Assembly: GCA_030645915.1 (NCBI GenBank)
Contig: JAUSNO010000038.1
Location: 1-64,000 of the forward strand
Origin: Undibacterium sp.
Lineage (GTDB): Bacteria > Pseudomonadota > Gammaproteobacteria > Burkholderiales > Burkholderiaceae_D
Length of the DNA stretch: 64,000 bases
Direction of reading: 5' to 3'
Notes under the pieces: generated by a model
The model's input: only the letters and a program-made list of their open reading frames with translations
Databases searched by the model: none
What the model was told of the DNA's origin: nothing
Made by a program: the position numbers and the translations under genes
Shown here: positions 34,010 to 53,337 of the stretch, piece by piece
Numbering within the stretch: position 1 is the stretch's first letter
Layout of the letters: each line of letters opens with the position of its first letter

Positions 34010-34842
34010 TACCACCTTCCAGAAGCACCGCCGCCGCCAAAACTACCGCCACCGCCGCCGAACCCTCCACCACCACTGAAACCGCCGTGTTGACCACCAA
34101 TAAATCTTCCCACGCCACCGCCTAGCAAGGCAAACACGAAGGCAAGGAGACCTGAGAGAAGTGCAATCGATATTGCTCCGGCAAATAGCCAGGCGAGAAA
34201 TCCCATGACCCCACCTGTCACGATGGCACCTGGCAACCGACCAAATATGGCGCGTAGAGCACCCCCAACGACCAAGGCCAGAATAAAAATGAGAGGAATA
34301 TAAGGTTTTATTTCTATCTCATTATTGGCTTGTTCGCGCACGGGTGGCAAGGGTTCACCTTCCGCTACGCGGATCATGCGATTAACGCCATCGGTAATGC
34401 CGCCATAAAAATCCGCTTGCTTGAGCTTTGGCGTAATTACTTCACTGATAATGCGTTGACATATGGCGTCGTTGAGCACGCCTTCAAATCCATAGCCAAC
34501 CTCAATGCGTAAAGTTCTGTCGTCTTTGGCGATAATTAACAGCGCACCGTCATCAACTTTCTTGCGTCCCAGTTTCCATCGCTCAACAACCCGCAGAGAA
34601 TATTGTTCTATCGCTTCCGGTGAAGTAGTCGATACGATCAAGACGCCAATCTGACTACCTTTCCTTGTTTCAAAATCCTTTAAGGTTTGCTCCAGATTTG
34701 CCTTTTGTTCCGCAGTGAGGGTGCCTGTACTGTCGGTGACACGGGATACCAGCTCTGGGACAGCAACCTGCGCAGCAACAAACATGGCAAAACAAAGCGC
34801 CAGAAAGAAAACCGGCGCTTTTACCAGCCTCGCTATCTTCAC
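34009..34842 (-). CDS. TPM domain membrane protein, YgcG family
   Basis: 277 residues: signal peptide (about 1-24), exported TPM domain (about 28-150; GYGFEGVLNDA is typical), two to three membrane helices (about 175-245) and a Gly-rich tail (FSGGGGFGGGGGSFGGGG). The start is GTG and overlaps the lemA stop by 4 bp (GTGA). LemA and TPM genes are adjacent in many bacteria; together they are thought to act at the envelope, but no activity is established. Confidence 0.92.
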   Translation of the reverse strand: MKIARLVKAPVFFLALCFAMFVAAQVAVPELVSRVTDSTGTLTAEQKANLEQTLKDFETRKGSQIGVLIVSTTSPEAIEQYSLRVVERWKLGRKKVDDGALLIIAKDDRTLRIEVGYGFEGVLNDAICQRIISEVITPKLKQADFYGGITDGVNRMIRVAEGEPLPPVREQANNEIEIKPYIPLIFILALVVGGALRAIFGRLPGAIVTGGVMGFLAWLFAGAISIALLSGLLAFVFALLGGGVGRFIGGQHGGFSGGGGFGGGGGSFGGGGASGRW

Positions 34843-35471
34843 TTGCTCACTCCGGGTGACGGTACTTCTGGTGTGCTTGCTGCTTTATCAAAATCCACTT
34901 TAGGTGGAGCAGCAATGGCGCGCTCGTTCTCCACAGTAAAATTGGGTTTAACCTTGTAACTCATGACCATCGCCGTCAGATTGGATGGAAATGAACGCAC
35001 TGTAACGTTGTATTCTTCTACCGATTTGATATAGCGATTGCGTGCGACTGTAATACGATTTTCAGTGCCTTCCAGTTGCGCTTGCAGATCGCGGAAACTG
35101 GCATCGGCCTTTAGCTGCGGATAATTTTCTGAAACCGCCAGCAGCCGGGATAAGGCACCAGAAAGCTCACCCTGCGCGCGCTGAAATTTTTCAAAGGCGA
35201 GCGGATCATTCAGCAAGGCCGGGGTTGCCTGGATAGAACCAACCCGCGCACGCGCATCGGCTACCTGAGTCAGCACTTCTTTTTCGTGAGCTGCATACCC
35301 CCTCACGGTGTTGACTAAATTCGGGATCAAGTCCGCGCGCCGTTGATACTGATTCACAACTTCAGACCAGCTGGCTTTTATTTGTTCATCCTGCGCTTGC
35401 ATTGTGTTATATCCACACCCGGATAAAGTGACGAGCAGTAGCGTCAGTAGAATAAATTTCAAATAATTCAT
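34839..35471 (-). CDS. lemA: LemA family lipoprotein
   Basis: 210 residues with a lipoprotein signal peptide (lipobox LSGC, Cys19) and a long helical LemA domain (NQYQRRADLIPNLVNTVRGY, VTVRSFPSNLTAMV). Predicted to be membrane-anchored, facing the periplasm. GGGAG lies seven bases before the ATG. The -10-like CATAGT (minus strand, 35583-35588) is centred 32 bp from a perfect FNR-type box, the spacing of a class II activated promoter. Confidence 0.9.
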   Translation of the reverse strand: MNYLKFILLTLLLVTLSGCGYNTMQAQDEQIKASWSEVVNQYQRRADLIPNLVNTVRGYAAHEKEVLTQVADARARVGSIQATPALLNDPLAFEKFQRAQGELSGALSRLLAVSENYPQLKADASFRDLQAQLEGTENRITVARNRYIKSVEEYNVTVRSFPSNLTAMVMSYKVKPNFTVENERAIAAPPKVDFDKAASTPEVPSPGVSK

Positions 35472-35610
35472 AAGGAATCTCCCATCTGATTGATGAACAC
35501 AATATCGGCGGTAAAGACATCTTGCGCATTGATCCGATAGACAGTGACAACCTGTCAGCGCTCATGATCTATCTGGATACATTACTATGATTTCTCTCGA
35601 TATGGGGGCG

Positions 35611-35624
35611 TTGATATTCATCAA
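35611..35624. promoter_or_regulatory. FNR/ANR-type box, perfect consensus
   Basis: TTGATATTCATCAA matches the FNR consensus TTGAT-N4-ATCAA exactly. It lies in the 289-bp divergent gap, 140 bp from lemA and 137 bp from the phosphoribosyltransferase gene, and could serve both. The lemA side has a -10-like hexamer at class II distance. Confidence 0.75.
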
Positions 35625-35760
35625 AAAATTGATCAACTGCGAATGTTGAGACGGCGACACGAGTTGCGCATTGACTACATTTGTTTATTGATTATTGTCA
35701 AACGCGGCCTTTCGCTCTCCCTCTATATTGAGAAAGTGAATAGCTAATGGGTGAGCAGGA

Positions 35761-36453
35761 ATGTTTGATCGAAATCGATTCGAGAATCGCGAGCAGGCGG
35801 GCGAGATGCTCGCGCAGCACCTGAGTGCCTATGCCGGACGTACAGACGCAATAGTGCTGGCGTTGCCTCGTGGCGGCGTACCTGTTGGATATGTGGTCGC
35901 CAAACATTTGCAGTTGCCGCTAGATGTTTTTTTGGTGCGCAAGCTGGGAATGCCAGGACATGAAGAGTTCGCAATGGGCGCAATTTCCAGCGGAGGCACA
36001 CGATTTTTGCAAGAGGATGTCGTGCGTTCTTACGGCATTTCAGAACGTGTGATCGATACAGTGGCGCAAGGAGAACTGCTTGAGCTGGAGCGAAGAGAGA
36101 AACTTTATCGTGCTGGTCGCCCGCCATTGGAATTAGCCAAACGCGTGGTGATTTTGGTGGACGATGGCTTGGCAACAGGGTCAACAATGAAAGCGGCGGC
36201 GCTTGCCGTGCGCAAGGCTAATCCTGCCAAGATTATTGTGGCGGTACCGGTCGGTGCTGCAGAGTCATTTGAGAAGTTGAGATCTGACGTGGACGACATT
36301 ATTTGCTTGCGCACACCTGATCCGTTCTATGCGGTCGGCACGTGGTATGTAAATTTTACGCAAACTTCTGATGATGATGTCATTCGACTGTTAGATGATG
36401 CCGCACAGGGAACGAAAGAGCGAGAAGATAAGGTTTCGCATTACCAGGTCTAG
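35761..36453 (+). CDS. Orphan phosphoribosyltransferase
   Basis: 230 residues of type I PRTase fold with the PRPP-binding VDDGLATGST at 133-142 and ALPRGGVPVGYVVA near the N-terminus. The hood region does not identify a base. Family members are often annotated only as phosphoribosyltransferase and occur next to, or fused with, dienelactone-hydrolase-like and erythromycin-esterase-like domains, exactly the two genes that follow here. ATG start with AGCAGGA before it. Confidence 0.9.
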   Translation: MFDRNRFENREQAGEMLAQHLSAYAGRTDAIVLALPRGGVPVGYVVAKHLQLPLDVFLVRKLGMPGHEEFAMGAISSGGTRFLQEDVVRSYGISERVIDTVAQGELLELERREKLYRAGRPPLELAKRVVILVDDGLATGSTMKAAALAVRKANPAKIIVAVPVGAAESFEKLRSDVDDIICLRTPDPFYAVGTWYVNFTQTSDDDVIRLLDDAAQGTKEREDKVSHYQV

Positions 36454-36501
36454 AAATAGCTTGTTGTGTGCAGCATGCACACTTGTCATAGAAGAAGATT
36501 A

Positions 36502-37185
36502 ATGGAAACAGAAATGATCAAAAACAAGCTGGTGAGAATTAAATCGGATGCTGTTGAGATAGAGGGGATGCTGGAGTTGCCCGAGCATCCGATTGGCATA
36601 GTGTTGTTTGCCCATGGCAGTGGAAGCAGCCGTTTTAGTCAACGAAATAATTATGTTGCGGAAGCATTGAGAACGGTGCAAATCGGCACGTTGTTGCTGG
36701 ATCTGCTGACACCAAAAGAAGACGAAGAGTATCAAAACCGTTTCAATATCGCTTTACTGACACAGCGTCTGCATGCGGCAGGTAACTGGCTAAGATCCAG
36801 CGAGGTTGCATCTCTTCCAATTGCCTTGTTCGGTGCCAGCACCGGCGCGGCTGCGGCACTTCAAGTGGCAGCCGATCTCGGTGACGACATTGCGGCTGTG
36901 GTATCGCGCGGCGGCCGGCCTGACTTGGCGGGGCACGAGGTGCTTGAGAAAGTGACTGCGCCAACTTTGCTTATCGTCGGTGGCGATGACACGGTTGTCA
37001 TCGATTTGAATCGTGAGGCTTATGCGCATCTGCATTGCGAAAAAAAATTGGAAATTATTCCAGGTGCAACGCATTTATTCGAAGAGTCGGGCAAGCTGCA
37101 GACGGTAGCCTCGCTTGCTGTTCAATGGTGTCATTGGCATTTTGATTTGTGGAACAAGAACCAACGAAAACTGCATGTTGAGTGA
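36502..37185 (+). CDS. Alpha/beta hydrolase, dienelactone hydrolase-like
   Basis: 227 residues. Nucleophile elbow GASTG (Ser near 113), acid in VGGDDTVVIDLN, histidine in PGATHLFEE, oxyanion segment FAHGSGSSRFS: a complete triad. Substrate unknown. ATG at 36502 has GAAGAAG upstream; the next in-frame ATG (36514) is possible. It lies 48 bp after the phosphoribosyltransferase and 10 bp before the esterase-like gene, so the three form an operon. Confidence 0.88.
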   Translation: METEMIKNKLVRIKSDAVEIEGMLELPEHPIGIVLFAHGSGSSRFSQRNNYVAEALRTVQIGTLLLDLLTPKEDEEYQNRFNIALLTQRLHAAGNWLRSSEVASLPIALFGASTGAAAALQVAADLGDDIAAVVSRGGRPDLAGHEVLEKVTAPTLLIVGGDDTVVIDLNREAYAHLHCEKKLEIIPGATHLFEESGKLQTVASLAVQWCHWHFDLWNKNQRKLHVE

Positions 37186-37195
37186 CAAATGACGA

Positions 37196-38647
37196 ATGAA
37201 ATGTAAAGACACTTTCGACGTCAATTTAAATGAGGGCGATCAATCTATCATGTTAACTGTTAAACAATCATCCGATCGATCCCATGGCACATCCGCATTA
37301 AGTGCTCTCATCGCTCAATCCGCCCATGTTCTGACTGGCTCCGAAAGCGATTATGACCCCTTGATGGATTTGATTGGTGATGCCAGGTTTGTTTTACTGG
37401 GAGAGGCGAGTCATGGTACGCATGAGTTTTATCGCGAAAGAGCTCTTATTACCCAGAGGTTAATCGCCGAAAAAGGTTTCACCGCCGTTGCGGTTGAAGC
37501 AGACTGGCCAGATGCCTATCGCGTGAATCGCTATGTTCGCCATACATTGAATACGGGAGGATTCTATACGGACTCCGATGCCAGGCAATCACTGGCAGGA
37601 TTTAAACGATTTCCAGCCTGGATGTGGCGTAACAAGGACGTGGTGGATTTTGTGGAATGGTTACGCGGCTACAACGATAGTCTTCTGTCGCCAATGTCCA
37701 AAGTCGGTTTTTATGGACTCGATTTGTACAGTATGTTTACTTCTATTGAAGAAGTCTTGCACTACCTCGATAAAGTAGATCCGGCCGAAGCGCGACGCGC
37801 TCGTGGCCGTTACGCCTGCTTTGATCACTACAATAAGGAGAGCCAGCATTATGGTTATGCCGCCGGACTAGGTTTGTCCGCTTCATGCGAAAAAGAGGTC
37901 GTTAAGCAATTAAAGGATCTGAATGCGCATGCAGCCGATTATGTGAAAAATGACGGCGGTGATGCGGTGGATGCCTTGTTTTATGCGCAGCAGAATGCCC
38001 GTCTCGTCATGCATGCGGAAGAATATTATCGCTCGATGTATAAGGGGCATGTGTCGTCATGGAACCTGCGTGACCGTCACATGACCGAAACGCTGGATGC
38101 GCTGGCTAAGCATCTATCAGAGAAAAATAGTGAGGATCAACCAGCCAAAATTGTCGTGTGGGCTCATAACTCACACATTGGCGATGCGCGGGCGACTGAG
38201 GTCGGTCAATTAGGCGAATGGAATGTGGGGCAACTCACGCGTGAGCGGTATGGCAAAGAGGCTGTATTAATAGGATTTTCTACCTATGAGGGGACGGTCA
38301 CTGCCGCATCTGACTGGGATGCGCCAGCGGAGCGCAAGCGTGTCAGACCTGCGCTAATCGGCAGCTTTGAGGCAGCACTGCATGATTCGGGAGTAGGGAA
38401 TTTCATGCTTCCGTTAGATAAGGAAAATCCATTGACCAAGGCCTTGTCCGGCCGTCGCTTAGAGCGCGCCATTGGCGTCATCTATCGGCCTGAGACAGAA
38501 CGGCAAAGCCATTATTTTTTCTCTCATGTGCCGCAACAGTTCGATGCCGTTGTGCATTTTGATCGTACGCGCGCGGTGGAACCTCTGGAGATCGCGAGTA
38601 TGTGGCATACGGGAGAGGCGCCAGAGACCTTTCCGGTGGGTGTCTAA
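37196..38647 (+). CDS. Erythromycin esterase-like hydrolase
   Basis: 483 residues with the EreA/EreB fold: GEASHGTHEFYRER holds the catalytic Glu/His cluster, followed by AVEADWPDAYRVNRYV, MWRNKDVVDFVEWLR and WAHNSHIGDARAT. In this genomic setting a macrolide resistance role is unlikely; the conserved partners point to an unknown ester, lactone or phosphoribosyl-linked substrate. ATG 37196 is used, but ATG 37250 (MLTVKQSS) may be the true start. Confidence 0.9.
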   Translation: MKCKDTFDVNLNEGDQSIMLTVKQSSDRSHGTSALSALIAQSAHVLTGSESDYDPLMDLIGDARFVLLGEASHGTHEFYRERALITQRLIAEKGFTAVAVEADWPDAYRVNRYVRHTLNTGGFYTDSDARQSLAGFKRFPAWMWRNKDVVDFVEWLRGYNDSLLSPMSKVGFYGLDLYSMFTSIEEVLHYLDKVDPAEARRARGRYACFDHYNKESQHYGYAAGLGLSASCEKEVVKQLKDLNAHAADYVKNDGGDAVDALFYAQQNARLVMHAEEYYRSMYKGHVSSWNLRDRHMTETLDALAKHLSEKNSEDQPAKIVVWAHNSHIGDARATEVGQLGEWNVGQLTRERYGKEAVLIGFSTYEGTVTAASDWDAPAERKRVRPALIGSFEAALHDSGVGNFMLPLDKENPLTKALSGRRLERAIGVIYRPETERQSHYFFSHVPQQFDAVVHFDRTRAVEPLEIASMWHTGEAPETFPVGV

Positions 38648-38698
38648 CGTGAAAGTCGCTTTTCATTAGCAATGAAATCGAGCAAAGGGGAGAAAGAA

Positions 38699-39526
38699 AT
38701 GAGCTACAAAAGCATGACGGTTTTTCTCGACAATAGTGCCGCATCATCCAGTCGCCTGGATTTTTCACTTGCTCTAGCGGCGCAACATGACGCGCATCTG
38801 ACAGGCCTGCATTTGAGCTATTCGCCCCAATTTTATTACGATCCTTATGCGCAATGGGCGCCAGTGATGGTGGAATGGGAAGCAGGGGTGCAGAAAAAAC
38901 GCGATCTGGCAAAAGAGAATTTTCGTACCGTGGCAAGAAAATCAGGTGTCAATTTTGATTGGGTTGATTATCAAAGCACCGAATTTAAACAAGTGGTAGC
39001 GCAGGCCAGAGCATCTGATCTGAGTATTCTGAGTCAGAGTAATCCATCGGATCTAGAAACTGATCTTGGTGAGGATTTTCCAGAACGGTTTGTATTTAAG
39101 CTCGGTAGACCGGTACTTTTTCTGCCTCATTCAGGTGTTTTTCCAAAAACATTTGGTCGTATTGTTCTTGCCTGGGATGGCGGGCGTGAAGCGGCGCGCG
39201 CCATGGCAGATGCGATGCCATTGTTAAAGCAAGCGCAGCTGGTCACCGTGCTGACAGTGTTGGAGAAAGTCGATAAAAAAAATGACCTGCCTGAGATTGA
39301 TATTGCCGCTTACCTGGCAAAACATGACGTTTTAGTTGATCTAGATAGAAACGAGGACATTGACGTCACTCCCGCAGATTGGCTGCTGTACCGGGCAGCC
39401 GATCTCAAAGCTGATTTAATTGTTATGGGTGCGTATGGCCATAGTCGTTTCACCGAGTTGGTTTTGGGTGGCACGACGCGTGCAATGTTGAAAAAAATGA
39501 CATTGCCAGTACTGATGTCGCACTAG
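38699..39526 (+). CDS. Universal stress protein with two USP domains
   Basis: 275 residues: two tandem USP domains (about 1-145 and 150-275). The second ends in GAYGHSRFTELVLGGTTR, the G-2x-G-9x-G(S/T) ATP-binding motif; the first lacks it. Start ATG 38699 has GGGGAG about eight bases upstream. Two-domain USPs are typical of ANR/FNR-controlled low-oxygen regulons in Pseudomonas and Burkholderia. Confidence 0.92.
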   Translation: MSYKSMTVFLDNSAASSSRLDFSLALAAQHDAHLTGLHLSYSPQFYYDPYAQWAPVMVEWEAGVQKKRDLAKENFRTVARKSGVNFDWVDYQSTEFKQVVAQARASDLSILSQSNPSDLETDLGEDFPERFVFKLGRPVLFLPHSGVFPKTFGRIVLAWDGGREAARAMADAMPLLKQAQLVTVLTVLEKVDKKNDLPEIDIAAYLAKHDVLVDLDRNEDIDVTPADWLLYRAADLKADLIVMGAYGHSRFTELVLGGTTRAMLKKMTLPVLMSH

Positions 39527-39556
39527 TGCGGCGATCGCCGAGATTTGTTTTGAATT

Positions 39557-41276
<1,720 letters not shown>

Positions 41277-41302
41277 CCGAGTTATCACTGAGGAGCTACG
41301 CT

Positions 41303-41752
41303 ATGTATGCTGGGACTGTAGGAACCCGTAAGGTTGAAACGTGCACCGCAAACGCCACCATTTTGCAAGTCGCTGAATTAATGCGTAGTGAACATGTCGG
41401 AGATCTGGTCGTTGTCGAATACCGTAGTGGCGAACCTGTGCCAGTTGGAATCGTCACGGATCGAGATCTGGTCGTGCAGGTACTCGCGAAGAAAGAAGAT
41501 CCGAATACGTTGACTGCGAGCGATGTGATGTCACGCAAGCTGGTCATTGCTTATGAAGGCGAACAGCTTGAGATCGCGATGGAGCGTATGCGCGGGTCAG
41601 GAATTCGTCGCGTACCTTTGGTTGACTCTGCTGGCGTGCTGGTCGGAATAGTCACTTTGGATGACATTATCGAGAGACTCACATCAACACTGGCGGATAT
41701 TTCACGCGTCAGTCATATGCAAAACATTGACGAACGCTTGAAGCGTAACTGA
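41303..41752 (+). CDS. CBS domain-pair protein
   Basis: 149 residues: two CBS motifs (about 8-65 and 75-135; GIVTDRDLVVQVL, GIRRVPLVDSAGVLVGIVTL). CBS pairs bind adenosine nucleotides and act as energy sensors. GAGGAG precedes the ATG, 26 bp after groEL, so it is cotranscribed. Confidence 0.92.
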   Translation: MYAGTVGTRKVETCTANATILQVAELMRSEHVGDLVVVEYRSGEPVPVGIVTDRDLVVQVLAKKEDPNTLTASDVMSRKLVIAYEGEQLEIAMERMRGSGIRRVPLVDSAGVLVGIVTLDDIIERLTSTLADISRVSHMQNIDERLKRN

Positions 41753-41773
41753 AACGTAACTAATGAAAGATGA

Positions 41774-41791
41774 CTCAATTTGTCAATTGAG
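41774..41791 (+). terminator. Weak hairpin after the CBS gene
   Basis: CTCAATT-TGTC-AATTGAG, a 7-bp stem 22 bp after the stop codon, without an immediate T tract. It may end the groEL-CBS transcript. The rest of the 328-bp gap up to the lipoprotein holds a short ATTCGC/GCGAAT dyad and an FNR-type box. Confidence 0.35.
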
Positions 41792-42006
41792 GCGATTTCA
41801 AAACAAAGGTTATTTTTAATTCGCATTGTTTATTGCGATGGCATCTGCATTGAATGCAAAATAGAATTGCGCTTCTTTTTATTCGCATATTCTGAGCGAA
41901 TTATCTCTGTACATTACATTTTATTGAAATTTTCAAATGCTCTGAAGATGAGTCGGGCGCATGGGTTCTTATTTCACTATTTCCCCTATTGTCTTCGTTT
42001 CCTCCC

Positions 42007-42020
42007 TTGACAGTTATCAA
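42007..42020. promoter_or_regulatory. FNR/ANR-type box before the glycine-zipper lipoprotein
   Basis: TTGACAGTTATCAA fits TTGAY-N4-RTCAA. It ends 60 bp before the ATG. CATTAT at 42043-42048 is about 32 bp from the box centre, consistent with a class II FNR-dependent promoter. Confidence 0.6.
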
Positions 42021-42080
42021 AGGAATGAGCGCTGCGAGACCCCATTATTGTGTATGGAATATTTAATGGAGGAAAGCGCT

Positions 42081-42539
42081 ATGAGCACAAAATTTCTTTA
42101 TCTATCGGTTGGATTGGTGTCATTTTTTTTGTCAGGATGTGCTTCGCCACCAAGCCAGCAGCAATCTGGGATGGTGGTAGGAGGCATAGTGGGTGGGCTG
42201 ATTGGATCGCAAGTCGGCGGCGGTCATGGAAGCACGGCGGCGGCAGTTGTGGGTACCCTGATTGGGGCCGCGGTCGGCGGCAATATTGGTCATGCCATGG
42301 ATGAGCAGGATCGTATGAAACTCACACGTTCATTGGAAACTGTTCAGACAGGAACGCCCACAAATTGGCGAAATCCGGACACAGGGAATCAATACACCTT
42401 TACACCAACAAAAACCTATGAAGCGGACAGTGGACCATGTCGCGAATTTACCGTTGATGGTGTCGTTGGTGGAAAACGAGAAAAAATTTATGGCACTGCT
42501 TGCCGTCAGCGCGATGGAAGTTGGCGAACTATTCAATAG
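42081..42539 (+). CDS. Glycine-zipper lipoprotein (17 kDa surface antigen type)
   Basis: 152 residues: lipoprotein signal (lipobox LSGC, Cys20), a glycine-zipper two-helix region (about 33-75; GGIVGGLIGSQVGGG, GTLIGAAVGGNIG) and a C-terminal domain with PCREFTVDGVVGGKREK typical of the Rickettsia 17 kDa/SmpA-like outer membrane antigens. GGAGGA sits eight bases before ATG 42081. Likely outer-membrane anchored and stress-related. Confidence 0.9.
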   Translation: MSTKFLYLSVGLVSFFLSGCASPPSQQQSGMVVGGIVGGLIGSQVGGGHGSTAAAVVGTLIGAAVGGNIGHAMDEQDRMKLTRSLETVQTGTPTNWRNPDTGNQYTFTPTKTYEADSGPCREFTVDGVVGGKREKIYGTACRQRDGSWRTIQ

Positions 42540-42636
42540 GCATCATCGATGTCACATGAGTTTATACAGGTGAGATTTTTGAAATGGGTAATGTTGATAC
42601 GACGATGTTTGGTTGCTTACATTTCGGAGGTGTGTC

Positions 42637-43860
42637 ATGTTTTGGGAAAAGAAACTTGAACATTGGGCGAATGGCCTGCGTAGCCGATCAGCATTGCCGC
42701 TAAGAGTGGATCTATGGAATGGACAACAACTGCATTTTGGTCACGAGACACCGCAAGTCATTATTAAAGTTCCGCATGTATCTGCGATCGCGTGTCTGCT
42801 GACGCCATCGCTTTCCAATCTCGGTGCCGCTTATGTCGATGGCAGAATAGAAGTGGAAGGCAATCCAGGAGCGATCATCTCTGTTGGTAATTCGCTCGCT
42901 TTTCATACCCTGAGATTAGAAGGGAAATTCGCACGTATTACACGAAAATTGCGTCGAAGCAAAGAGAAGGATTTAAAAGCAGTTCAATATCATTACGATA
43001 TTTCTAACGATTTTTATAAATTGTGGCTTGATGAAAATTTGGTCTATTCCTGCGGCTATTTCGAAAATGGTGATGAGGATTTATTTTCGGCGCAGATTAA
43101 AAAAATTGACCATATCTTGACTAAAATTCAGGTTCGTCCTGGTGATAGGCTACTTGATATCGGCTGCGGCTGGGGTGCTTTGGCAATACGGGCAGCAGAA
43201 AAATTTGGTGCAAAATGTGTCGGAATTACGCTTTCAGAAAATCAGGCCTCGCATGCGATGGAGAGAGTAGAACAACTTGGTTTAAGTGATCGTGTCGAAA
43301 TTCGCTTGCAAGACTATCGTGATGTTAAAGGCAGTTTCGACAAAATTACCAGTGTAGGCATGTTTGAACACGTTGGCTTACAAAATCTCAGTGGGTATTT
43401 TTCAAAGATCCATTCATTGTTGGCAGACAACGGCATCGCGATGAATCACGGCATTACTTCGACGGACGCCGACAACGGCGAGACACCGTATGGGAACGGT
43501 GAATTTATCGAGAAGTACGTGTTCCCTTATGGCGAATTGCCGCATATAGGACTGGCGTTAAAGTCGATACAAGAGGGCGGCTTGGAAGTGGTTGATGTGG
43601 AAAATTTACGCCGGCATTATTCGAGGACTTGCTCTATTTGGGCAGAAAATTTTGAAATGCGTTCTGATGAAATTCGAACTTTAGTCGGCGATAGACGATA
43701 TCGCATTTGGCGAATTTATCTAGCCGGTTGCGCTTATGCTTTTAATCGGGACTGGATTTCTTTATATCAGATTGTGTGCGTCAAGGCTGGCCAACACCCA
43801 TCCAACTTGGCATGGTCGCGCCGTCACATGTATGACCCTTACGGCAAGACTTTTAATTGA
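42637..43860 (+). CDS. cfa: Cyclopropane-fatty-acyl-phospholipid synthase
   Basis: 407 residues. SAM-binding LLDIGCGWGALAIRAAEKFG (about 178-197), YDISNDFYKLWL, SVGMFEHVG and the C-terminal RRHYSRTC are all present. It methylenates unsaturated acyl chains of membrane phospholipids, a common stationary-phase, acid and stress adaptation. GGAGG lies six bases before ATG 42637. It follows the lipoprotein after 97 bp, possibly in one transcript. Confidence 0.93.
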   Translation: MFWEKKLEHWANGLRSRSALPLRVDLWNGQQLHFGHETPQVIIKVPHVSAIACLLTPSLSNLGAAYVDGRIEVEGNPGAIISVGNSLAFHTLRLEGKFARITRKLRRSKEKDLKAVQYHYDISNDFYKLWLDENLVYSCGYFENGDEDLFSAQIKKIDHILTKIQVRPGDRLLDIGCGWGALAIRAAEKFGAKCVGITLSENQASHAMERVEQLGLSDRVEIRLQDYRDVKGSFDKITSVGMFEHVGLQNLSGYFSKIHSLLADNGIAMNHGITSTDADNGETPYGNGEFIEKYVFPYGELPHIGLALKSIQEGGLEVVDVENLRRHYSRTCSIWAENFEMRSDEIRTLVGDRRYRIWRIYLAGCAYAFNRDWISLYQIVCVKAGQHPSNLAWSRRHMYDPYGKTFN

Positions 43861-43870
43861 TGTGAAAAAC

Positions 43871-43918
43871 GGTTGATGAACACACGTCAACCTAGATTTG
43901 ATGATGAAGGTAGGTTGA
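43871..43918. repeat. Competing hairpins between cfa and the RHH gene
   Basis: TCAACC (43887-43892) can pair with GGTTGA upstream (43871-43876) or, as TCAACCTA, with TAGGTTGA downstream (43911-43918). The two folds exclude each other. It lies in the 68-bp convergent gap; there is no T tract, so terminator function is uncertain. Confidence 0.35.
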
Positions 43919-43928
43919 GCACCATTCA

Positions 43929-44315
43929 CTACCATCTTCCAAGAGCATGTTCATCGACAGGATATAAGAGATCGGTATCATCTTGGTCAATCTCACGCTC
44001 CATGGCCAGATGATGTTTGTGAATCAAACCGTGAAATTCAGCAAATGGCCCGTTCAAAAGATAGATTGCTTGCTTTGTGTCCGGATGGAATAGGGGAGGC
44101 TCTGCACTAGGATGCGATGCTGCGTGTTCAACTTGTGCGAGTCCCAGATCAATCAAGTCAACAATCAGATCGGTACGTTTCTTCTGTGGATGCATCTTGG
44201 ACAATGCCTCTATTTTTGAAGCCAGAGGAAGTGATAGCTTGAGAGAATATTTCTTGGAAGTGTCTTTAAATCCGGATGTCTTATAAGAAATTTTTTCATG
44301 TCGCTGGCTTAACAT
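43929..44315 (-). CDS. Small protein with ribbon-helix-helix-like segment
   Basis: 128 residues. The segment KYSLKLSLPLASKIEALSKM followed by RTDLIVDLIDLGLAQVE (about 25-62) looks like a ribbon-helix-helix DNA-binding fold; the C-terminal half (HPDTKQAIYLLNGPFAEFHGLI) is not recognised. GGAG precedes ATG 44315. It follows the flavodoxin gene by 29 bp. It may be a transcription factor, possibly of this small operon. Confidence 0.65.
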   Translation of the reverse strand: MLSQRHEKISYKTSGFKDTSKKYSLKLSLPLASKIEALSKMHPQKKRTDLIVDLIDLGLAQVEHAASHPSAEPPLFHPDTKQAIYLLNGPFAEFHGLIHKHHLAMEREIDQDDTDLLYPVDEHALGRW

Positions 44316-44344
44316 GCTTACTCCTTCACGTAATTGTTTGAATT

Positions 44345-44833
44345 TTATAGAATGCAATTGTTGAGTTTTTCGGTAAATTCTTTCACTTCCTCATGTTGAC
44401 GCTCATTCTTTATATCGCTATCTTTGACTGCCAATCTGGCGATAGGTGCTTGTCCAGCCAGCTTCTCCAAATCTTGAAAAATTTTCACTTGCCCTGATCC
44501 TCCATAAGTGCAAAAAAATGCAATGCGTTTAAACTGATGTCGATGGCTTTTTATATATGTCCGTATGGGGTTGGAGACATTCCAGCACCAAATTGGTGTC
44601 CCGATTACCACGACATCGTAGTTGTCGGGCGCATATCTGACACGCCGGATGAGCGTATCAGAATGCATTGCAGCTTCAAATACCAACCGTAGGTAACTTT
44701 TTCCATCGAATCGCCTTCGTATATCCCTAATTGATTCAAGATCAGCTCCGCAAGAATTGGCGATTTCATTGGCGACAGTGCTCGTAAATCCAGTCCGTGA
44801 ATAGTAGATGATTAAAATTTTTCTCACTTTCAT
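44345..44833 (-). CDS. Flavodoxin-like protein
   Basis: 162 residues with the FMN phosphate loop YYSRTGFTSTVA (about 9-20) and GTPIWCWNVSNPIRTYI at the isoalloxazine site. Likely a small FMN electron carrier or NAD(P)H:quinone reductase-like protein. ATG 44833 (MKVRKILII) is chosen over a TTG four codons upstream. It starts 2 bp after the preceding stop, so the operon is hypothetical-flavodoxin-RHH. Confidence 0.85.
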   Translation of the reverse strand: MKVRKILIIYYSRTGFTSTVANEIANSCGADLESIRDIRRRFDGKSYLRLVFEAAMHSDTLIRRVRYAPDNYDVVVIGTPIWCWNVSNPIRTYIKSHRHQFKRIAFFCTYGGSGQVKIFQDLEKLAGQAPIARLAVKDSDIKNERQHEEVKEFTEKLNNCIL

Positions 44834-44835
44834 CT

Positions 44836-45129
44836 TTAAATACAAAGATTAATTATTTTCGTTTGCAGATCTATTTCCTCATTATTTTCCGTCTGGCGTT
44901 CAAGTGGCGGCAAAGTGTCGACTGTGTCACCACGCTCAATATCTCCTTTTGATAGATGTTCATTATCAAATCCCTCTAGCTCGGGGGACTGTGCGGGCGT
45001 TGATGTAGCGCTCTCAGCTTCCGCCTTTGTTTTTCGTTGATTTACTTTTCTTCCTTTTTTTTCAATCGACATAGGCCGAACTCGACCATGCGTTGGTTTC
45101 CTTGAATGCTTGATGTCTTCGGCTTTCAT
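44836..45129 (-). CDS. Hypothetical, probably disordered protein
   Basis: 97 residues with a basic N-terminal half (HSRKPTHGRVRP, KKGRKVNQRKTK) and an acidic C-terminal half. No family recognised. ATG 45129 is chosen; the upstream sequence has only a weak ribosome site. Tight spacing to the flavodoxin gene is the main support. An FNR-type box lies about 72 bp upstream. Confidence 0.5.
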   Translation of the reverse strand: MKAEDIKHSRKPTHGRVRPMSIEKKGRKVNQRKTKAEAESATSTPAQSPELEGFDNEHLSKGDIERGDTVDTLPPLERQTENNEEIDLQTKIINLCI

Positions 45130-45200
45130 ATTCACTGATAATCCAATAGACCAATGTGTTGTCCAGAGATTTAAGATTAAGCGATGCAATCGATACCCGA

Positions 45201-45214
45201 TTGATAATTCTCAA
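45201..45214. promoter_or_regulatory. FNR-type box in the gap before the flavodoxin operon
   Basis: TTGATAATTCTCAA keeps the TTGA-N6-TCAA core. It is 13/14 identical to the box at 47808. It lies in a 333-bp gap between a minus operon and the plus-strand DegP remnant; nothing else in the gap was recognised. Confidence 0.5.
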
Positions 45215-45462
45215 AAGAGGTCGGCGCTCTATTGATAGGATTTCAATTGCTAACTTGAAGAACGGATATCTCCAGGCGACATACTTGACACGTTCAATAG
45301 CTAAAAGAACATGGATGTCTTCCTGGATCGGTTTGGATTACTTAATCTAATTGCTGCCTGAAACCAAGTTTGCGGAAGTCAGTATTTTTCCTAATGAATA
45401 GTCAAACGAATTGATGTCTCATTGGGAATCGCAGCATTTCGTTATTTTGAAGAGGCAGAACC

Positions 45463-45849
45463 ATGAAACGTAAAGCATTAATATTGACGCTGGTTGCCCT
45501 TGGCATGGCTTTGGCTGCCACTTCTACAGGTATTGACCTTAATCCTAAAAACTGGTTTTCTGACAGCAGCCCTAGAGCGAATAAAGTGCCTTTGGCACCC
45601 ATCGTTCCATTTCCTGCGGGAACTACCCCCAATTATCGAGTCATCGTGCAGCAAGCGGGACCCGCCGTCGTTGGCCTTACTGTCACCGGTTCGCATGAGC
45701 TTGAGGTCAAGAATTTCTCTCAATTCAGTGACGATCCATTCTTCCAATTTTTTAAGGGAATTCCAGGTTTTCAGTGGCGCATGCCTAGCCAAGGATCTGG
45801 TCGAATTCCCCTTCAAGAAAAATATAATAAATTAATATGGCTGAATTGA
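45463..45849 (+). pseudogene. N-terminal remnant of a DegP/HtrA serine protease
   Basis: 128 codons remain: signal peptide (about 1-20), then NYRVIVQQAGPAVVGLTV and DDPFFQFFKGIPGFQ, the pre-protease region of DegQ/MucD-type proteins. The frame then turns into unrelated residues and stops before the trypsin-like domain; no His, Asp or Ser of the triad is encoded here or just downstream. A deletion with a junction near 45800 is likely. AGAGGCAG still precedes the ATG, so a short exported peptide may be made. Confidence 0.75.
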
Positions 45850-46488
45850 AATTTTATCCTGTACCTTAGTAACTCCAGGTGCTAACCAGGCTGCCCGCTC
45901 GGCTTCCTTACGTTCAAACCAGGTGTGTACAGAGCCTTTTAATATCACTTCGCCGCCATTGGCCTCAACTATAATGTGGTTTGCGTCAATCTCTGCGCTA
46001 CGCATGAAAGCTTCTTCTATTTTTCGTTTGATCTCAATCGGAGAAACCTTGGGTTGTACGTTGATACTGTTAATAACGCCACTGACACCTTTCAAGTGAC
46101 GAACGGCGTCTGCCGCTCTCTCTTTTTGATATTGCCATTCCAAAGCACCTTCCAAAGTAATCCAACCATCCCGCACCAACACTTTTACGTGTCCATACGA
46201 CACTGGCAACTGAAATTGCAATGCAGTGACTGCGTCACGTGCGATTTCCGGATCTGGCCTCTTGTCAACACTGGGCAAACGAACTTCGATATCGTTGGCA
46301 ATGCCACTGACACCAGTCACACGTTTTACATCAAGTTCTGCCTGAAATTTTTGAGGAAAAGTCGAAACATATCCACTCAGTGCAACAACTCCTTTCTTTA
46401 CTGACACTGCAATATCAGTCGATTTAATATCGGGATCCCAGTTTAGTTCTGCTTCAATATTTTTCTTTATTTCGCTATCGGTTATCAT
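45832..46488 (-). CDS. Triple BON domain protein (copy 1)
   Basis: 218 residues made of three BON domains (about 3-70, 78-145, 150-218), each with the conserved late glycine (GVVALSGYV, GWITLEGALEW, GEVILKGSVHTWFE). No signal peptide, so cytoplasmic. BON domains bind phospholipid or other ligands, and such proteins are common in stress islands. Same length as, and roughly 70% identical by eye to, copy 2. GGAGG precedes the ATG. Its 3' end overlaps the DegP remnant by 18 bp. Confidence 0.9.
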   Translation of the reverse strand: MITDSEIKKNIEAELNWDPDIKSTDIAVSVKKGVVALSGYVSTFPQKFQAELDVKRVTGVSGIANDIEVRLPSVDKRPDPEIARDAVTALQFQLPVSYGHVKVLVRDGWITLEGALEWQYQKERAADAVRHLKGVSGVINSINVQPKVSPIEIKRKIEEAFMRSAEIDANHIIVEANGGEVILKGSVHTWFERKEAERAAWLAPGVTKVQDKISIQPY

Positions 46489-46636
46489 ATTAATACCTCC
46501 AAAATAATGAATGAAAAAATTAATTAAAATTCAATTCCTCCCAATGAGAATTGACTGGTCGATAGGAATGCGCCATCAATCCGAGAGGCATTCAACTATA
46601 AAAATACGCGTTATTGGCCACTTCAGCATTGTCCAT

Positions 46637-46972
46637 TTAATGTGCCGGCAACATCAGTGGGTCACGTAACTTAATAATCTGTTTAACATTGTCCGCATCG
46701 ATTATTTCAACGCTGGATAATGCGACGCCATTCTGTTCAATATATACATCGCATGGTTTGCGTATCATATGATCCAAGCCATCTAGTAGGATTTCAATCA
46801 AGTCATTTTTTTTATCGTAGGTGATACCTAAAAACGGCACCCATTCTGCTTGGATCTGACTTCCAAGCGTCAGTGAGTCCACCTCAATCTCTGCAAGTTT
46901 TCCGTCAACGGTCTTTGATACATGATCGAAATATGATTGCCATGCTGACTTTTCGAGTTTTGATGTACTCAT
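46637..46972 (-). CDS. DUF5335 family protein
   Basis: 111 residues (LEKSAWQSYFDHVSKTV, QAEWVPFLGITYDKKND, LIEILLDGLDHMI). This matches the small DUF5335 family found beside BON and USP genes; function unknown. It starts 28 bp after BON copy 2, so the order BON-DUF5335-BON is probably one transcript. Confidence 0.8.
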   Translation of the reverse strand: MSTSKLEKSAWQSYFDHVSKTVDGKLAEIEVDSLTLGSQIQAEWVPFLGITYDKKNDLIEILLDGLDHMIRKPCDVYIEQNGVALSSVEIIDADNVKQIIKLRDPLMLPAH

Positions 46973-46999
46973 TATTTATCTCCGAAATGTGTGATTGAA

Positions 47000-47656
47000 T
47001 CAATATGGCAGGATAAAAATTTTGTCATCCACTTTTTTGACGCCGGGTGCCGACCATGCTGCACGTTCTGCTTCCTTGCGTTCAAACCAGGTATGTACCG
47101 ACCCCTTTAGAATGACTTCACCATCATGGCTTTCGACAATGATACGATTAGCGTCTATTTCGGCACTGCGTTTGAGCGCTTCTTCTATTTTTCGTTTGAT
47201 TTCTAAAGGGGAAACTTTGGGTTTGACTACGATATTATTGGTCACTCCATTAATGCCTTTTAGGTGACGTACAGCGTCTTCAGCGCGCTCTTTTAAATAT
47301 TGCCATTCCGTACTGCCTTCGATTGTAAGCCAAGCGTCACGAACAATAACTTTAACGTTTTCATGAAGAGTAGGTAGTTGAATTTTGAGTGCCGTTACTG
47401 CATCTCGTGCAATTTCTGGATCAGATTTTTTATCCACATGTGGTACGCGTACTTCAAGATCATTCGCTATGCCGACAACGCCAGCAATGCGCTTTACATC
47501 AGATTCCGCCTGTGATTTTTGTGCGTAACTCGGTACATATCCGGCCAGATCGACGACACCGTTTTTCACTGCTATCGCAATATCTGTCGTATTAATATCT
47601 GGATCCCATTGCAATTCAGCTTCGACATTTTTTTTAATTTCTCTATCGGATATCAT
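47000..47656 (-). CDS. Triple BON domain protein (copy 2)
   Basis: 218 residues, three BON domains aligned without gaps to copy 1 (identical GSVHTWFERKEAERAAW near the C-terminus). Copy 1 and copy 2 arose by duplication, with the DUF5335 gene now between them. GGAGG precedes the ATG. An FNR-type box lies 152 bp upstream and may drive the three-gene operon. Confidence 0.9.
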   Translation of the reverse strand: MISDREIKKNVEAELQWDPDINTTDIAIAVKNGVVDLAGYVPSYAQKSQAESDVKRIAGVVGIANDLEVRVPHVDKKSDPEIARDAVTALKIQLPTLHENVKVIVRDAWLTIEGSTEWQYLKERAEDAVRHLKGINGVTNNIVVKPKVSPLEIKRKIEEALKRSAEIDANRIIVESHDGEVILKGSVHTWFERKEAERAAWSAPGVKKVDDKIFILPY

Positions 47657-47807
47657 GAAAATACCTCCAAAATTAGAATGAAAAACAATATAAAAACAAA
47701 TTTTCCCGAACGTGAAGAGTGATTAAATAATGGACGTACTGTAAATATTAGACACGTCGTCATATTCACTATGAAGGTCATTTTGAATCGATGATATGAC
47801 ATCGCCG

Positions 47808-47821
47808 TTGACAATTCTCAA
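47808..47821. promoter_or_regulatory. FNR-type box before the BON operon
   Basis: TTGACAATTCTCAA keeps the TTGA-N6-TCAA core (one half-site ends in C where R is expected). It lies in the 497-bp divergent gap between BON copy 2 and the kinase gene. Confidence 0.5.
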
Positions 47822-47953
47822 TTTACTTCTATGTCTGGTGCTCATCAATACGCACTTTAATTGTTGCCGCGGCGAGAAATACGGATGAAGAAATGTTTGT
47901 AGTTTTATTTGATAATTCGCAATTCAATTTGTGCAATGATCAATATAGTGAAG

Positions 47954-48138: not shown

Positions 48139-48153
48139 GAGGCCGCCTTGTCT

Positions 48154-50134: not shown

Positions 50135-50506
50135 TATTCAATATTCGACTATGTCTGCATATATCTATCAGGCATTGCCATATGGTTGGTACATTCAGAC
50201 AGCTATTTTCAAGCGACCTGCTAAATACTGAGTTGCGAAAGCTCAAGGAACGTCGCTGAAAATTAGATTCACTAATGTTGTCCTGATTATTTTATTGAAA
50301 ACGATCTTTTCATTTTTAATGATTTCGTGAAGCGTTTTCTCGGAAAAATATGGCTGTTGCTATTTTTGCGATTTATCAAATGTAGAAATAGTTGCCGCAT
50401 CTATTCTTAATTCACTATCTGGCCTGTACTTAAAAAGTGTCAGGCATGGGATTGAGTAGGCAACTCTGCTATTTCATAATGCGCAGGTTAAAGAAGGAAA
50501 TAATTG
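50135..50506. promoter_or_regulatory. 372-bp divergent gap upstream of hsp20-lon
   Basis: Contains TTGCGATTTATCAA (50366-50379), an FNR-like site with a damaged left half, and a CCATATGG palindrome. No sigma-32 promoter was recognised. Nothing coding. Confidence 0.3.
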
Positions 50507-50911
50507 ATGTTATATCTCAACCCCAGAGTAAGGATGCTGGCTGAAGCGATTGACCTGTTCGAAAGTGCAGATCGTCTTCAACGTCAATTCTTTCGACTCG
50601 GAAAAACGGAAGATGTACCGAGTTGGGAGCCACCTATCGATATGTACGGAAATGATGAAGAGTTGTTTTTATTAGTAGCGTTTCCTGGCGTCGCGCCGGA
50701 TAGTTTACATGTTTCGCTTGAGGAGGCTTGCGTCAGTGTTCGAGGCGAAAGGGTAATTGGTCGACATGTTGGTTCGGGAAATATTTTATGTTTGGAAATT
50801 CCCTATGGCCGCTTTGAACGCCGCATCGCGTTACCAATCGGTAATTATCGTATGGTTGCCATGCAATTGGAAAATGGCTGCCTGCGTCTTCATCTTGGAC
50901 GAATTAAATGA
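50507..50911 (+). CDS. Small heat-shock protein, Hsp20/alpha-crystallin family
   Basis: 134 residues: N-terminal arm (1-40) and alpha-crystallin domain (about 42-134; PPIDMYGNDEELFLLVAFPG, VSVRGER, IPYGRFERRIALP). The protein ends LRLHLGRIK, right at the last domain strand, without the C-terminal extension carrying the I-x-I assembly motif. ATG 50507 has AAGAAGGA eight bases upstream. Its stop overlaps the lon start by 4 bp (ATGA), so holdase and protease are translationally coupled. Confidence 0.92.
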   Translation: MLYLNPRVRMLAEAIDLFESADRLQRQFFRLGKTEDVPSWEPPIDMYGNDEELFLLVAFPGVAPDSLHVSLEEACVSVRGERVIGRHVGSGNILCLEIPYGRFERRIALPIGNYRMVAMQLENGCLRLHLGRIK

Positions 50912-53337
50912 ATCAGATCTCTTTGCTGGAAGATGAAAATGCGGATCCTGAAAAAGCTAAGGCTGACGCAGAAGCGGATAGTATGAGTTCTGCTTCGCTG
51001 AAAAAAATTCCTGAAAATACGATGGTGATAGTGCCGGTACGAAATATGGTGTTATTTCCGGGTTTATTAGTGCCGATCGCGATCGGTCGTAAAAGTTCAA
51101 TTGCAGCAGCTCAATACGCGGTGAAGGCAGAGCTTCCAATTGGTATTGTGATGCAAAAAAATCCGTTGGCAGATGCCCCTGGTCCCGACGATTTGTCGAC
51201 GATGGGTACTGTCGCTTCAATACTGCGCTACGTTACAACACCGGAAGGCACTCATCACATCATATGTCAAGGTCAGCAAAGATTTCGCGTGGTCGGTTAC
51301 GTTGACGGTTTTCCTTTTATCGTGGCAAAAATAGAGATTGTTGTAGAGCCATCAAACACGCATGATAAGGAAGTGGAGGCATTGTTCATTCATCTCAAGG
51401 AACGGGCAATGGAGGTGTTGCAGTTAATGCCGCAAGCTCCCCAGGAAATGGTTAATGCTGTAGAGAGTATAGATTCCGCCGGTATACTTGCCGACTTGGT
51501 TGCCGGCTATATGGATATTGATGCCTCTGAAAAACAGGAATTGCTTGAGGATGTGGATTTGCGCAGTCGTCTAGAGCGGTTGTTGAAACTAGTGATACAT
51601 AAAATTGATGTAATGAAAATTTCGCGCCAGATTGATAGCCGTACCAAAGCGAGCATGTCTAAGCGAGAACGAGAGTATGTACTGCGTGAGCAGATGAAAT
51701 CGATTCAAAAGGAACTTGGTGAAGGGGGAGAGGGAAATAGTGCTGAAATGGCTGAATTGCGCAAGCAAATCGCCGAGGCACAAATGCCTGAGGAAGTTGC
51801 CAAACAGGCTGAAAAAGAACTGGCACGACTAGAGCGTATGTCAGACAGTTCTGCGGAATATTCGATGGTGCGTACGTATCTTGATTGGTTGGTTGAGTTG
51901 CCATGGAAGACGCCTGAGCCTGATGTGATTGATGTTGCGGAAGCTCGAGGTATTTTGAATGCAGATCATTTTGGACTCGAACTGGTCAAGAAACGTATTC
52001 TTGAGTTTCTTGCCGTACGTAAGCTAAACCCCGGTGGCCATGGTCCGATTCTTTGCCTGGTAGGACCACCAGGGGTGGGGAAAACCTCACTCGGGCAGTC
52101 GATAGCCAAAGCGTTGGGCCGTAAGTTTGTGCGTGTTTCACTAGGCGGCGTGCATGATGAGGCGGAGATGCGCGGACACAGGCGCACCTATATTGGCGCC
52201 TTACCCGGAAAAATTATTCAAGCACTAAAAAAAGCTGGCACTCGCGGTTGTGTGATGATGCTTGACGAAATCGATAAACTTGGTAGTGGCAGCCATGGCG
52301 ATCCATCCGCAGCTTTGCTAGAGGTGCTTGATCCGGAACAGAATTGTAATTTTCAGGATAACTATCTGTCCGTTCCTTACGATTTGTCGCAAGTTCTCTT
52401 TATTGCGACGGCCAATGTGCTTGACCCGATTCCCGGCCCATTACGTGACCGTATGGAGGTGCTGCAATTAGCTGGTTATACGCAAGAGGAAAAACGTGAG
52501 ATCGCACGTAAATATCTGGTGGCCCGGCAAATTAGCGAAAGTGGCTTGAAGCAGACTCAGATTGAAATTGATGATGATGCGCTCGCCGCTATTATTCGTG
52601 ACTACACGCGTGAAGCCGGCGTACGTAATCTGGAACGACAAATAGGCACTATTTGTCGTCGTGTCGCGGTTCGCATTGCAGAAGGAGACGTGGCGAGGGT
52701 ACTCGTTGCTGAGACTGATTTAGCAAAGATTCTTGGTCCTGCGAAATTCGAGAATGAGGTTGCGTTACGGTCAGGCTTGCCAGGTGTCGCGACAGGTTTG
52801 GCATGGACTCCTGTTGGCGGAGATATTCTCTTTATTGAAGCTAGTCGTACGATAGGCAACGGTCGACTTATCCTTACAGGACAACTCGGCGATGTAATGA
52901 AAGAATCAGCGCAGGCGGCCTTGACGCTGGTGAAATCCAAGGCTGCCGAGTTTGAATTAGATACCGGTATTTTTGAAAAATCAGATGTGCATATACATGT
53001 TCCAGCTGGCGCCATTCCAAAAGATGGGCCGAGCGCTGGCGTTGCGATGTTCATTGCGTTGGCTTCGCTTTTTGTTGATAAACCTGTGCGAAATGATATC
53101 GCGATGACAGGAGAAATCAGTTTGCGGGGATTAGTCCTTCCAGTCGGAGGAATCAAGGAGAAAGTGCTCGCCGCAGTGGCAGCAGGAATAAAAATGGTGA
53201 TGTTGCCAGAACGCAATAAAAATGATTTGGAGGATATTCCTTCATCTGCGAAACAGCATATAGAGTTCACTTTCATCGAAAATGTTGAGCAAGCTGCACG
53301 TGTAGCAATTGTGCAAAATAAAATTACAAAGAATTAA
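50908..53337 (+). CDS. lon: ATP-dependent protease Lon
   Basis: 809 residues: LonN substrate domain (about 20-215; VVPVRNMVLFPG), helical linker, AAA+ module (Walker A GPPGVGKTS near 393, Walker B MMLDEIDKL) and protease domain with the Ser-Lys dyad in PKDGPSAGVAM (about 708-718) and GGIKEKVLAA. All catalytic residues are intact. It lies in the stress island next to hsp20, away from the usual clpX-lon order, so this may be a second lon copy. Confidence 0.95.
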   Translation: MNQISLLEDENADPEKAKADAEADSMSSASLKKIPENTMVIVPVRNMVLFPGLLVPIAIGRKSSIAAAQYAVKAELPIGIVMQKNPLADAPGPDDLSTMGTVASILRYVTTPEGTHHIICQGQQRFRVVGYVDGFPFIVAKIEIVVEPSNTHDKEVEALFIHLKERAMEVLQLMPQAPQEMVNAVESIDSAGILADLVAGYMDIDASEKQELLEDVDLRSRLERLLKLVIHKIDVMKISRQIDSRTKASMSKREREYVLREQMKSIQKELGEGGEGNSAEMAELRKQIAEAQMPEEVAKQAEKELARLERMSDSSAEYSMVRTYLDWLVELPWKTPEPDVIDVAEARGILNADHFGLELVKKRILEFLAVRKLNPGGHGPILCLVGPPGVGKTSLGQSIAKALGRKFVRVSLGGVHDEAEMRGHRRTYIGALPGKIIQALKKAGTRGCVMMLDEIDKLGSGSHGDPSAALLEVLDPEQNCNFQDNYLSVPYDLSQVLFIATANVLDPIPGPLRDRMEVLQLAGYTQEEKREIARKYLVARQISESGLKQTQIEIDDDALAAIIRDYTREAGVRNLERQIGTICRRVAVRIAEGDVARVLVAETDLAKILGPAKFENEVALRSGLPGVATGLAWTPVGGDILFIEASRTIGNGRLILTGQLGDVMKESAQAALTLVKSKAAEFELDTGIFEKSDVHIHVPAGAIPKDGPSAGVAMFIALASLFVDKPVRNDIAMTGEISLRGLVLPVGGIKEKVLAAVAAGIKMVMLPERNKNDLEDIPSSAKQHIEFTFIENVEQAARVAIVQNKITKN

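Follow-up and report, generated by a model that had tools for sequence, protein, structure and literature searches.

A box-rich stress island in Undibacterium and its putative cluster-less FNR-like regulators

How might stress genes be kept under FNR-type, low-oxygen-type control in a bacterium in which no iron-sulphur FNR is found? This question is raised by a stretch of 64,000 nucleotides from Undibacterium sp. (assembly GCA_030645915.1, contig JAUSNO010000038.1, positions 1 to 64,000; hereafter the window), the leftmost part of a contig (C39) of 299 kb. Here, genes for a universal stress protein (USP), a second GroEL and BON-domain proteins are accompanied by copies of the FNR-type box TTGA-N6-TCAA. 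An earlier interpretation made without database searches (the sequence-only reading) had taken these boxes as the mark of a low-oxygen regulon of FNR/ANR type, reminiscent of the low-oxygen-activated (lxa) locus of Burkholderia cenocepacia. Based on sequence and on analogy with characterized systems, we consider a FixK-like arrangement fairly probable, in which FNR relatives devoid of an iron-sulphur cluster would activate the island together with low-oxygen respiratory genes and would receive their signal via PAS or two-component partners.

Boxes of the island and their promoter geometry

The window contains nine TTGA-N6-TCAA sites versus 2.59 expected (standard deviation 1.65), a number reached in none of 100 shuffles. 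Six of them are located in the 2,385 bp of intergenic DNA of the island part of the window (35472-50503), and the remaining three (17934, 30415 and 55883) are inside coding sequence, in agreement with the sequence-only reading, which had found none between the genes of the left half. Five of the intergenic sites (35611, 39557, 42007, 45201 and 47808) had been reported at exactly these positions, the first one correctly as a perfect TTGAT-N4-ATCAA; the list was incomplete in that the sixth intergenic box, 35688, had been missed. The chance expectation had been put at well under one and indeed amounts to 0.15 sites, the mean for dinucleotide shuffles of the island intergenic DNA, none of which (0 of 3,000) gave at least six. 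In the same DNA, other spacings are represented by zero (N4), two (N5), two (N7) and zero (N8) sites. This spacing control was used instead of a reversed-pattern control (28 sites genome-wide), which we judged poor. Moreover, N6 sites are not equally common in other intergenic DNA, since a background sample, consisting of the remainder of the window and eight 20-kb stretches from the same genome, contains three in 23,234 bp (conditional binomial p = 4e-5 versus the island). The intergenic counts are based on manually adjusted gene starts in the window (e.g. 42081 for the glycine-zipper lipoprotein, 39654 for groEL and 45129 for orf117); it should be noted that at its longest possible start the glycine-zipper lipoprotein gene would overlap the 42007 site. 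One-mismatch intergenic boxes are found in the window at 47909, 50233 and 50366.

The enrichment extends past the window. Within the 2,564 intergenic bp of the next 20 kb of the contig (L156, C39:64-84 kb) there are five N6 sites (p = 4e-4, one of the five having been known before the stretch was examined) and none at each of the other four spacings; a sixth N6 site of this stretch lies within coding sequence. One of the five boxes is positioned between the genes of a KaiC-like ATPase and a PEBP protein, and the others precede the polyhydroxyalkanoate (PHA) polymerase, PolX and Hsp20 genes and a BON-CBS group. From the first box of the window to the last box of L156 (C39:35.6-79.4k) there are 13 sites, whereas 2,000 random scatters gave at most 11 for a span of this size (44 kb), which was picked after the fact. 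The window probably carries the left part of a stress and persistence island of about 45 kb (C39:35-79 kb).

An activator centred at -41.5 would place the start of the -10 hexamer about 22 nt past the box, and we scored hexamers around the boxes with E. coli weights. Upstream of the phosphoribosyltransferase (PRT) gene, the box TTGATTATTGTCAA (35688..35701, + strand) is centred 66 bp from the ATG and followed by TATATT at +22. The groEL box TTGATTAAAGTCAA (39557..39570, +) is centred 90 bp from the ATG, with GAGAAT at +20, and the glycine-zipper lipoprotein gene has its upstream box TTGACAGTTATCAA (42007..42020, +) centred 68 bp from the ATG at 42081. On the - strand, the box at 45201..45214, upstream of the orf117-flavodoxin-orf142 operon, has TAATCT at +21, and the one at 47808..47821, centred 158 bp from the ATG of the BON-DUF5335-BON genes, has CAAAAT at +22. 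The perfect box TTGATATTCATCAA (TTGAT-N4-ATCAA, 35611..35624, not assigned to a strand) lies between lemA and the PRT gene, its centre being 146 and 144 bp from their respective starts. Towards PRT it has no good -10 (score -2.0), and towards lemA there is CATAGT (2.2) at +21; this box may serve lemA or act together with 35688.

When 17 boxes were considered, the mean -10 score was highest in 6-bp bins starting 18-22 nt past the box, with background values on either side, and was equalled in none of 5,000 random placements. This set comprises all 11 intergenic island boxes and six boxes from elsewhere (ccoN, hemerythrin, metallo-beta-lactamase, Hsp20, OmpW and the L157 synthetase); boxes outside the island in L006, L012, L158, L159, L162, L163, L165 and L167 were left unscored. 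Because the six outside boxes were hand-picked, the result to rely on is that of the test restricted to the island. Taken by themselves, the 11 boxes of the island scored 2.64 versus 0.52 on average, and none of 10,000 random placements was as good. In the opposite orientation the signal was lost (0.84, with 1,033 of 10,000 random placements as good). The predicted position of the boxes, about 41.5 bp upstream of the transcription start, fits class II FNR-type activation in the direction of the genes only, and an FNR-family protein bound there would switch on the island operons. Sigma-32 commonly drives transcription of the groEL, Hsp20 and Lon genes, and the presence of all three in the island would suit a heat-shock regulon in which the boxes are incidental. 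The regions upstream of six island genes or operons, including groEL and Hsp20, have no match to the sigma-32 promoter CTTGAA-N11-16-CCCCAT (with at most one mismatch in the first half and two in all), and the chance that this explanation applies seems minimal.

Box genes across the genome and FNR-like proteins without cluster ligands

We inspected each of the 27 perfect TTGAT-N4-ATCAA sites present in the genome. According to our own open reading frame (ORF) calls, 13 fall within coding sequence, 12 precede a gene start and one (L010) is flanked by converging genes; one more (L165) counts as upstream if a doubtful 154-residue ORF is disregarded. Genes for ccoN-like, hemerythrin and beta-CASP nuclease proteins have a perfect box upstream at a distance of 56-64 bp. 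The first of these is a COX1-family gene, which we take to be ccoN by reading of its sequence, with 58 bp between the box and its start. The OmpW gene has two boxes upstream, one of them perfect, and genes for Hsp20, a phasin and a YitT membrane protein are also preceded by perfect boxes. In Herbaspirillum seropedicae, Fnr1 is reported to control fixNOP, ompW1 and phaC directly, and two usp genes to be co-activated by Fnr1 and Fnr3 (PMC5934665). It is chiefly because the box genes parallel the Fnr1 targets fixNOP, ompW1 and phaC that we regard the regulon as one of FNR/FixK and low-oxygen type. Judging from the sequence, a regulon of this type spanning the island as well as the ccoN-like, OmpW and hemerythrin genes is very likely, and by analogy the low-oxygen control of the island is likely to be indirect and FixK-like.

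Crp/Fnr-type regulators do exist in this genome. The HTH_Crp_2 profile matched 11 places, ten of which were read, the eleventh being sub-threshold (22 bits). Three of the ten proteins, L016, L017 and L018, have an FNR-type DNA-reading helix with the E--SR residues, which are those used by E. coli FNR on its box (PMC4505428). The CxxC-N5-C ligands of the [4Fe-4S] cluster are present in none of the three, and no FNR with an N-terminal CxxC was found in the genome, either among the ten HTH_Crp_2 matches read or in a search with a fragment of an iron-sulphur FNR of the genus. For both L016 and L017, the two proteins searched, FNR is the best match among solved structures (for L016, 6e-26, better than 3e-19 for FixK2). 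By sequence, these proteins have the features of the FixK type, namely, similarity to FNR, lack of the iron-sulphur cysteines and an FNR-type helix. FixK-type proteins are described as devoid of the cysteines, recognizing much the same box and acting behind FixLJ (PMC4999443).

As our searches revealed no Crp/Fnr protein carrying the [4Fe-4S] cysteines at its N terminus, this genome seems to lack the means for oxygen sensing of the classical FNR/ANR kind. Direct sensing of oxygen by a [4Fe-4S] FNR that activates the island would be in line with the canonical form of the box and with the CxxC FNRs encoded in or near related islands of other genomes (in the island itself in G061, and about 28 and 14 kb from the esterase genes in G127 and G045, respectively). 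However, neither the profile scan nor the genus fragment revealed such a protein in an assembly rated 99.79% complete, though divided into 39 contigs, and we regard classical control as very unlikely. Thus, the low-oxygen regulon proposed by the sequence-only reading stands in part: the boxes, their enrichment, the -10 spacing and their sharing with the ccoN-like, OmpW and hemerythrin genes fit the FNR/ANR/FixK type, and it is the sensing by an iron-sulphur FNR/ANR, for which no CxxC protein was found, that is not supported.

With the N-terminal part of a CxxC FNR of the genus (from G143) as query, close relatives were found in only two of the 43 genomes of the genus, namely G143 itself and G222; all further hits share at most 40% identity, the one in this genome being L018. 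L017-type proteins have a match in 35 of 39 genomes. CxxC-N5-C is absent from all 30 L017-type proteins considered (from this and 29 further genomes of the genus), and in nine of the 30 the first cysteine is also gone. USP and response-regulator genes are neighbours in 30 of 30 of these loci, and in the present genome L017 is found beside a USP gene and response regulators, followed by a MASE3-PAS-histidine kinase. A haem-PAS (FixL-like) reading of this kinase is not claimed, as one histidine aligns and the FixL arginines do not (by eye, against FixL).

L016 is encoded in the island (C39:77.7-78.6 kb), between Hsp20 and BON genes. A gene for a small PAS-like protein of 167 residues (L156:14676-15179, that is, C39:78676-79179, - strand) has the L016 gene 48 bp behind it; the PAS match is weak, with an E-value of about 1e-3, and the protein is a possible sensor partner of L016. 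Among the 294 genomes searched, close relatives of L016 were found in just two others, G198 (62%) and G008 (49%). In G198 (C1, about 3503.6-3504.6 kb, L236/L237), the frame ceases to follow the family sequence when it reaches the DNA-reading helix; the gene may be a broken copy. In G008, the relative shares its stretch with a presumed ccoN-like gene, which is preceded by a box at a distance of 62 bp, and is close to a presumed hemN-like gene, both genes being named by reading of their sequences. In a tree of FNR-like proteins nearly all iron-sulphur rows were split from the cluster-less ones; two outgroup rows fell in different places on saturated branches and the position of L016 was unsure, and the tree was not relied on.

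In the FixK-like arrangement that we favour, the three FNR-like regulators without iron-sulphur ligands, L016 in the island, L017 beside the PAS histidine kinase, response regulators and USP, and L018 elsewhere, would be the readers of the boxes, and it is probably PAS or two-component partners that relay oxygen or redox status, in the manner of FixLJ-FixK, rather than an iron-sulphur FNR. A more tentative scenario is that most of the genus has lost its iron-sulphur FNR and that the box regulon (stress island, cbb3 oxidase) passed to cluster-less FNR-like proteins taking the oxygen or redox signal from PAS partners, the PAS-like protein and L016 possibly forming a dedicated island regulator. 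Alternatively, the cluster-less proteins might sense another signal directly, be it nitric oxide through a haem group (the case of DNR), thiol redox (the case of FixK2) or a nucleotide, low oxygen then being at most a correlate. Such sensing would be compatible with the missing cysteine cluster of all three regulators and with the hemerythrin-domain gene among the box genes. Nevertheless, the ccoN-like, OmpW and PHA genes behind the box indicate oxygen limitation by analogy with Herbaspirillum (PMC5934665), and we consider direct sensing of another signal rather unlikely.

Weighing of the evidence and gene content of the island

Several observations weigh against the FixK-like reading of the island. 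The whole genome (4.17 Mb) contains 166 TTGA-N6-TCAA sites, and under uniform scatter the chance of at least six in any 12.2-kb stretch is 0.02, so that the cluster of the window is only moderately striking on its own. Genome-wide, N6 is barely above N5 and N7 (292 together, 146 on average); because it is hardly commoner than these spacings, the excess of N6 is a local one. About half of the perfect sites fall inside coding sequence, and Hsp20-Lon, a stress operon of the island, has no exact box upstream, only the one-mismatch box at 50366. The pairing of the PAS-like protein with L016 rests on adjacency in one genome, with a PAS match below the Pfam cut-offs, and the stretches read near the L016 relatives of G198 and G008 contain no relative of the PAS-like protein. 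Finally, the erythromycin-esterase-like gene of the island, present in 57 of 195 family genomes including this one, is found in none of the ten other same-genus genomes listed, and therefore no close footprint is possible. In the regions examined for 20 of the other 56 esterase-bearing family genomes, the PRT gene is commonly near the esterase gene, and exact boxes within 400 bp upstream of PRT are present in one of 17 readable relatives (G061, with two boxes as here). Two more of the 17 (L148 and L155) have a one-mismatch site upstream of PRT. A conserved footprint at the PRT operon, being mostly absent outside G061, was not used as support.

The scan probability of 0.02, the small genome-wide excess over other spacings and the lack of a good -10 from 35611 towards PRT would all be expected if the box cluster were partly fortuitous, a product of AT-rich intergenic DNA with only some of the sites in use. 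The outcome of the 3,000 shuffles, the spacing control, the extension past the window and the direction-specific -10 spacing argue otherwise, leaving this possibility with a very slight probability.

The genes of the island were assigned by Pfam unless stated otherwise. The LemA-family lipoprotein gene (34839..35471, - strand; LemA, 2.4e-57) is followed downstream by two TPM-domain genes (33503-34842). On the + strand are located the PRT, alpha/beta hydrolase and erythromycin-esterase-like genes (35761..38647), the USP gene (38672..39526; Usp, 2.7e-17), the gene of a second, divergent GroEL (39654..41276), a CBS-domain gene (41303..41752) and the genes for the glycine-zipper lipoprotein and a cyclopropane-fatty-acid-synthase-like protein (42081..43860). 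The island GroEL is 65% identical to the other copy in the genome, encoded on C28. A GroES-like ORF, named by eye, adjoins the C28 copy only, and the C28 protein is 90% identical to that of a Duganella metagenome-assembled genome (among the best 80 of 593 matches). As a handle on relatives of the island, the island groEL was of no use, the best 80 of 593 matches being swamped by housekeeping groEL. The - strand carries orf117, flavodoxin and orf142 (43929..45129; Flavodoxin_4, 2.5e-14), orf117 and orf142 having no family in Pfam, and the BON, DUF5335 and BON genes (45832..47656), in which two similar proteins with three BON domains each (45832-46488 and 47000-47656) are encoded on either side of the DUF5335 gene, as if duplicated. 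The Hsp20 (HSP20 in Pfam) and Lon-like protease genes, the latter named by eye, are at 50504..53337 (+). In addition, a 128-residue ORF at 45463-45849 (+) resembles by eye an N-terminal piece of an HtrA/DegP-type protease; Pfam gives it no family and no protease domain, and it is probably a remnant.

Comparison with known systems

FNR/FixK regulons and lxa-like islands are already known; what seems to be new is that a stress island rich in boxes is combined with a cbb3-type oxidase gene in a genus that, for the most part, appears to have no iron-sulphur FNR. A search confined to open-licence literature revealed no publication on such a cluster-less FNR-box stress island. The locus is an example, at the sequence level, of an FNR-box regulon that persists although the iron-sulphur sensor seems to be missing across most of the genus, and makes the question of a low-oxygen regulon without FNR experimentally testable.

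Four systems are closest to the one described here. The Fnr1/Fnr3 regulon of H. seropedicae includes box-controlled fixNOP, ompW1, phaC and usp genes, and here the box precedes the ccoN-like, OmpW and PHA polymerase genes; however, the Fnr proteins of Herbaspirillum bind an iron-sulphur cluster, whereas no CxxC FNR was found here, and a chaperone island comparable to ours does not appear in the consulted portion of the Fnr regulon description (PMC5934665). The lxa locus of B. cenocepacia (BCAM0275-0323) is likewise a large uninterrupted block, in which USP genes are accompanied by those for an alpha-crystallin-type small heat-shock protein and a BON protein, and all these gene kinds, at which level the comparison was made, are present in the island. 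Moreover, its regulator gene anr2/BCAM0049 adjoins a USP gene, as L017 does here. The differences are that lxa has six USPs versus one in our window and that anr2 is termed an Anr-type regulator (PMC6127331, PMC9104464).

The island of G061, which belongs to another genus of the family, spans C12:74.9-129.4 kb (L138, L241) and concentrates 20 of the 141 boxes of that genome in 55 kb. Besides PPDK and CorA genes, it has, as here, a PRT-hydrolase-esterase operon with two boxes upstream and genes for CBS, USP, PolX, DUF5335 and DnaK proteins, but in contrast to the present genome it carries its own CxxC-type FNR. This points to the existence of lxa-like, box-rich stress islands in relatives whose dedicated regulators differ.

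Finally, the FixLJ-FixK system of rhizobia shares with the arrangement proposed here a cluster-less FNR-like regulator and nearly the same box. Oxygen is perceived there via a sensor kinase, and L017 is encoded beside a PAS kinase and response regulators. In rhizobia the sensor is the haem protein FixL, whereas the PAS kinase here is a candidate sensor, and the putative targets in Undibacterium are a stress island plus an oxidase (PMC4999443).

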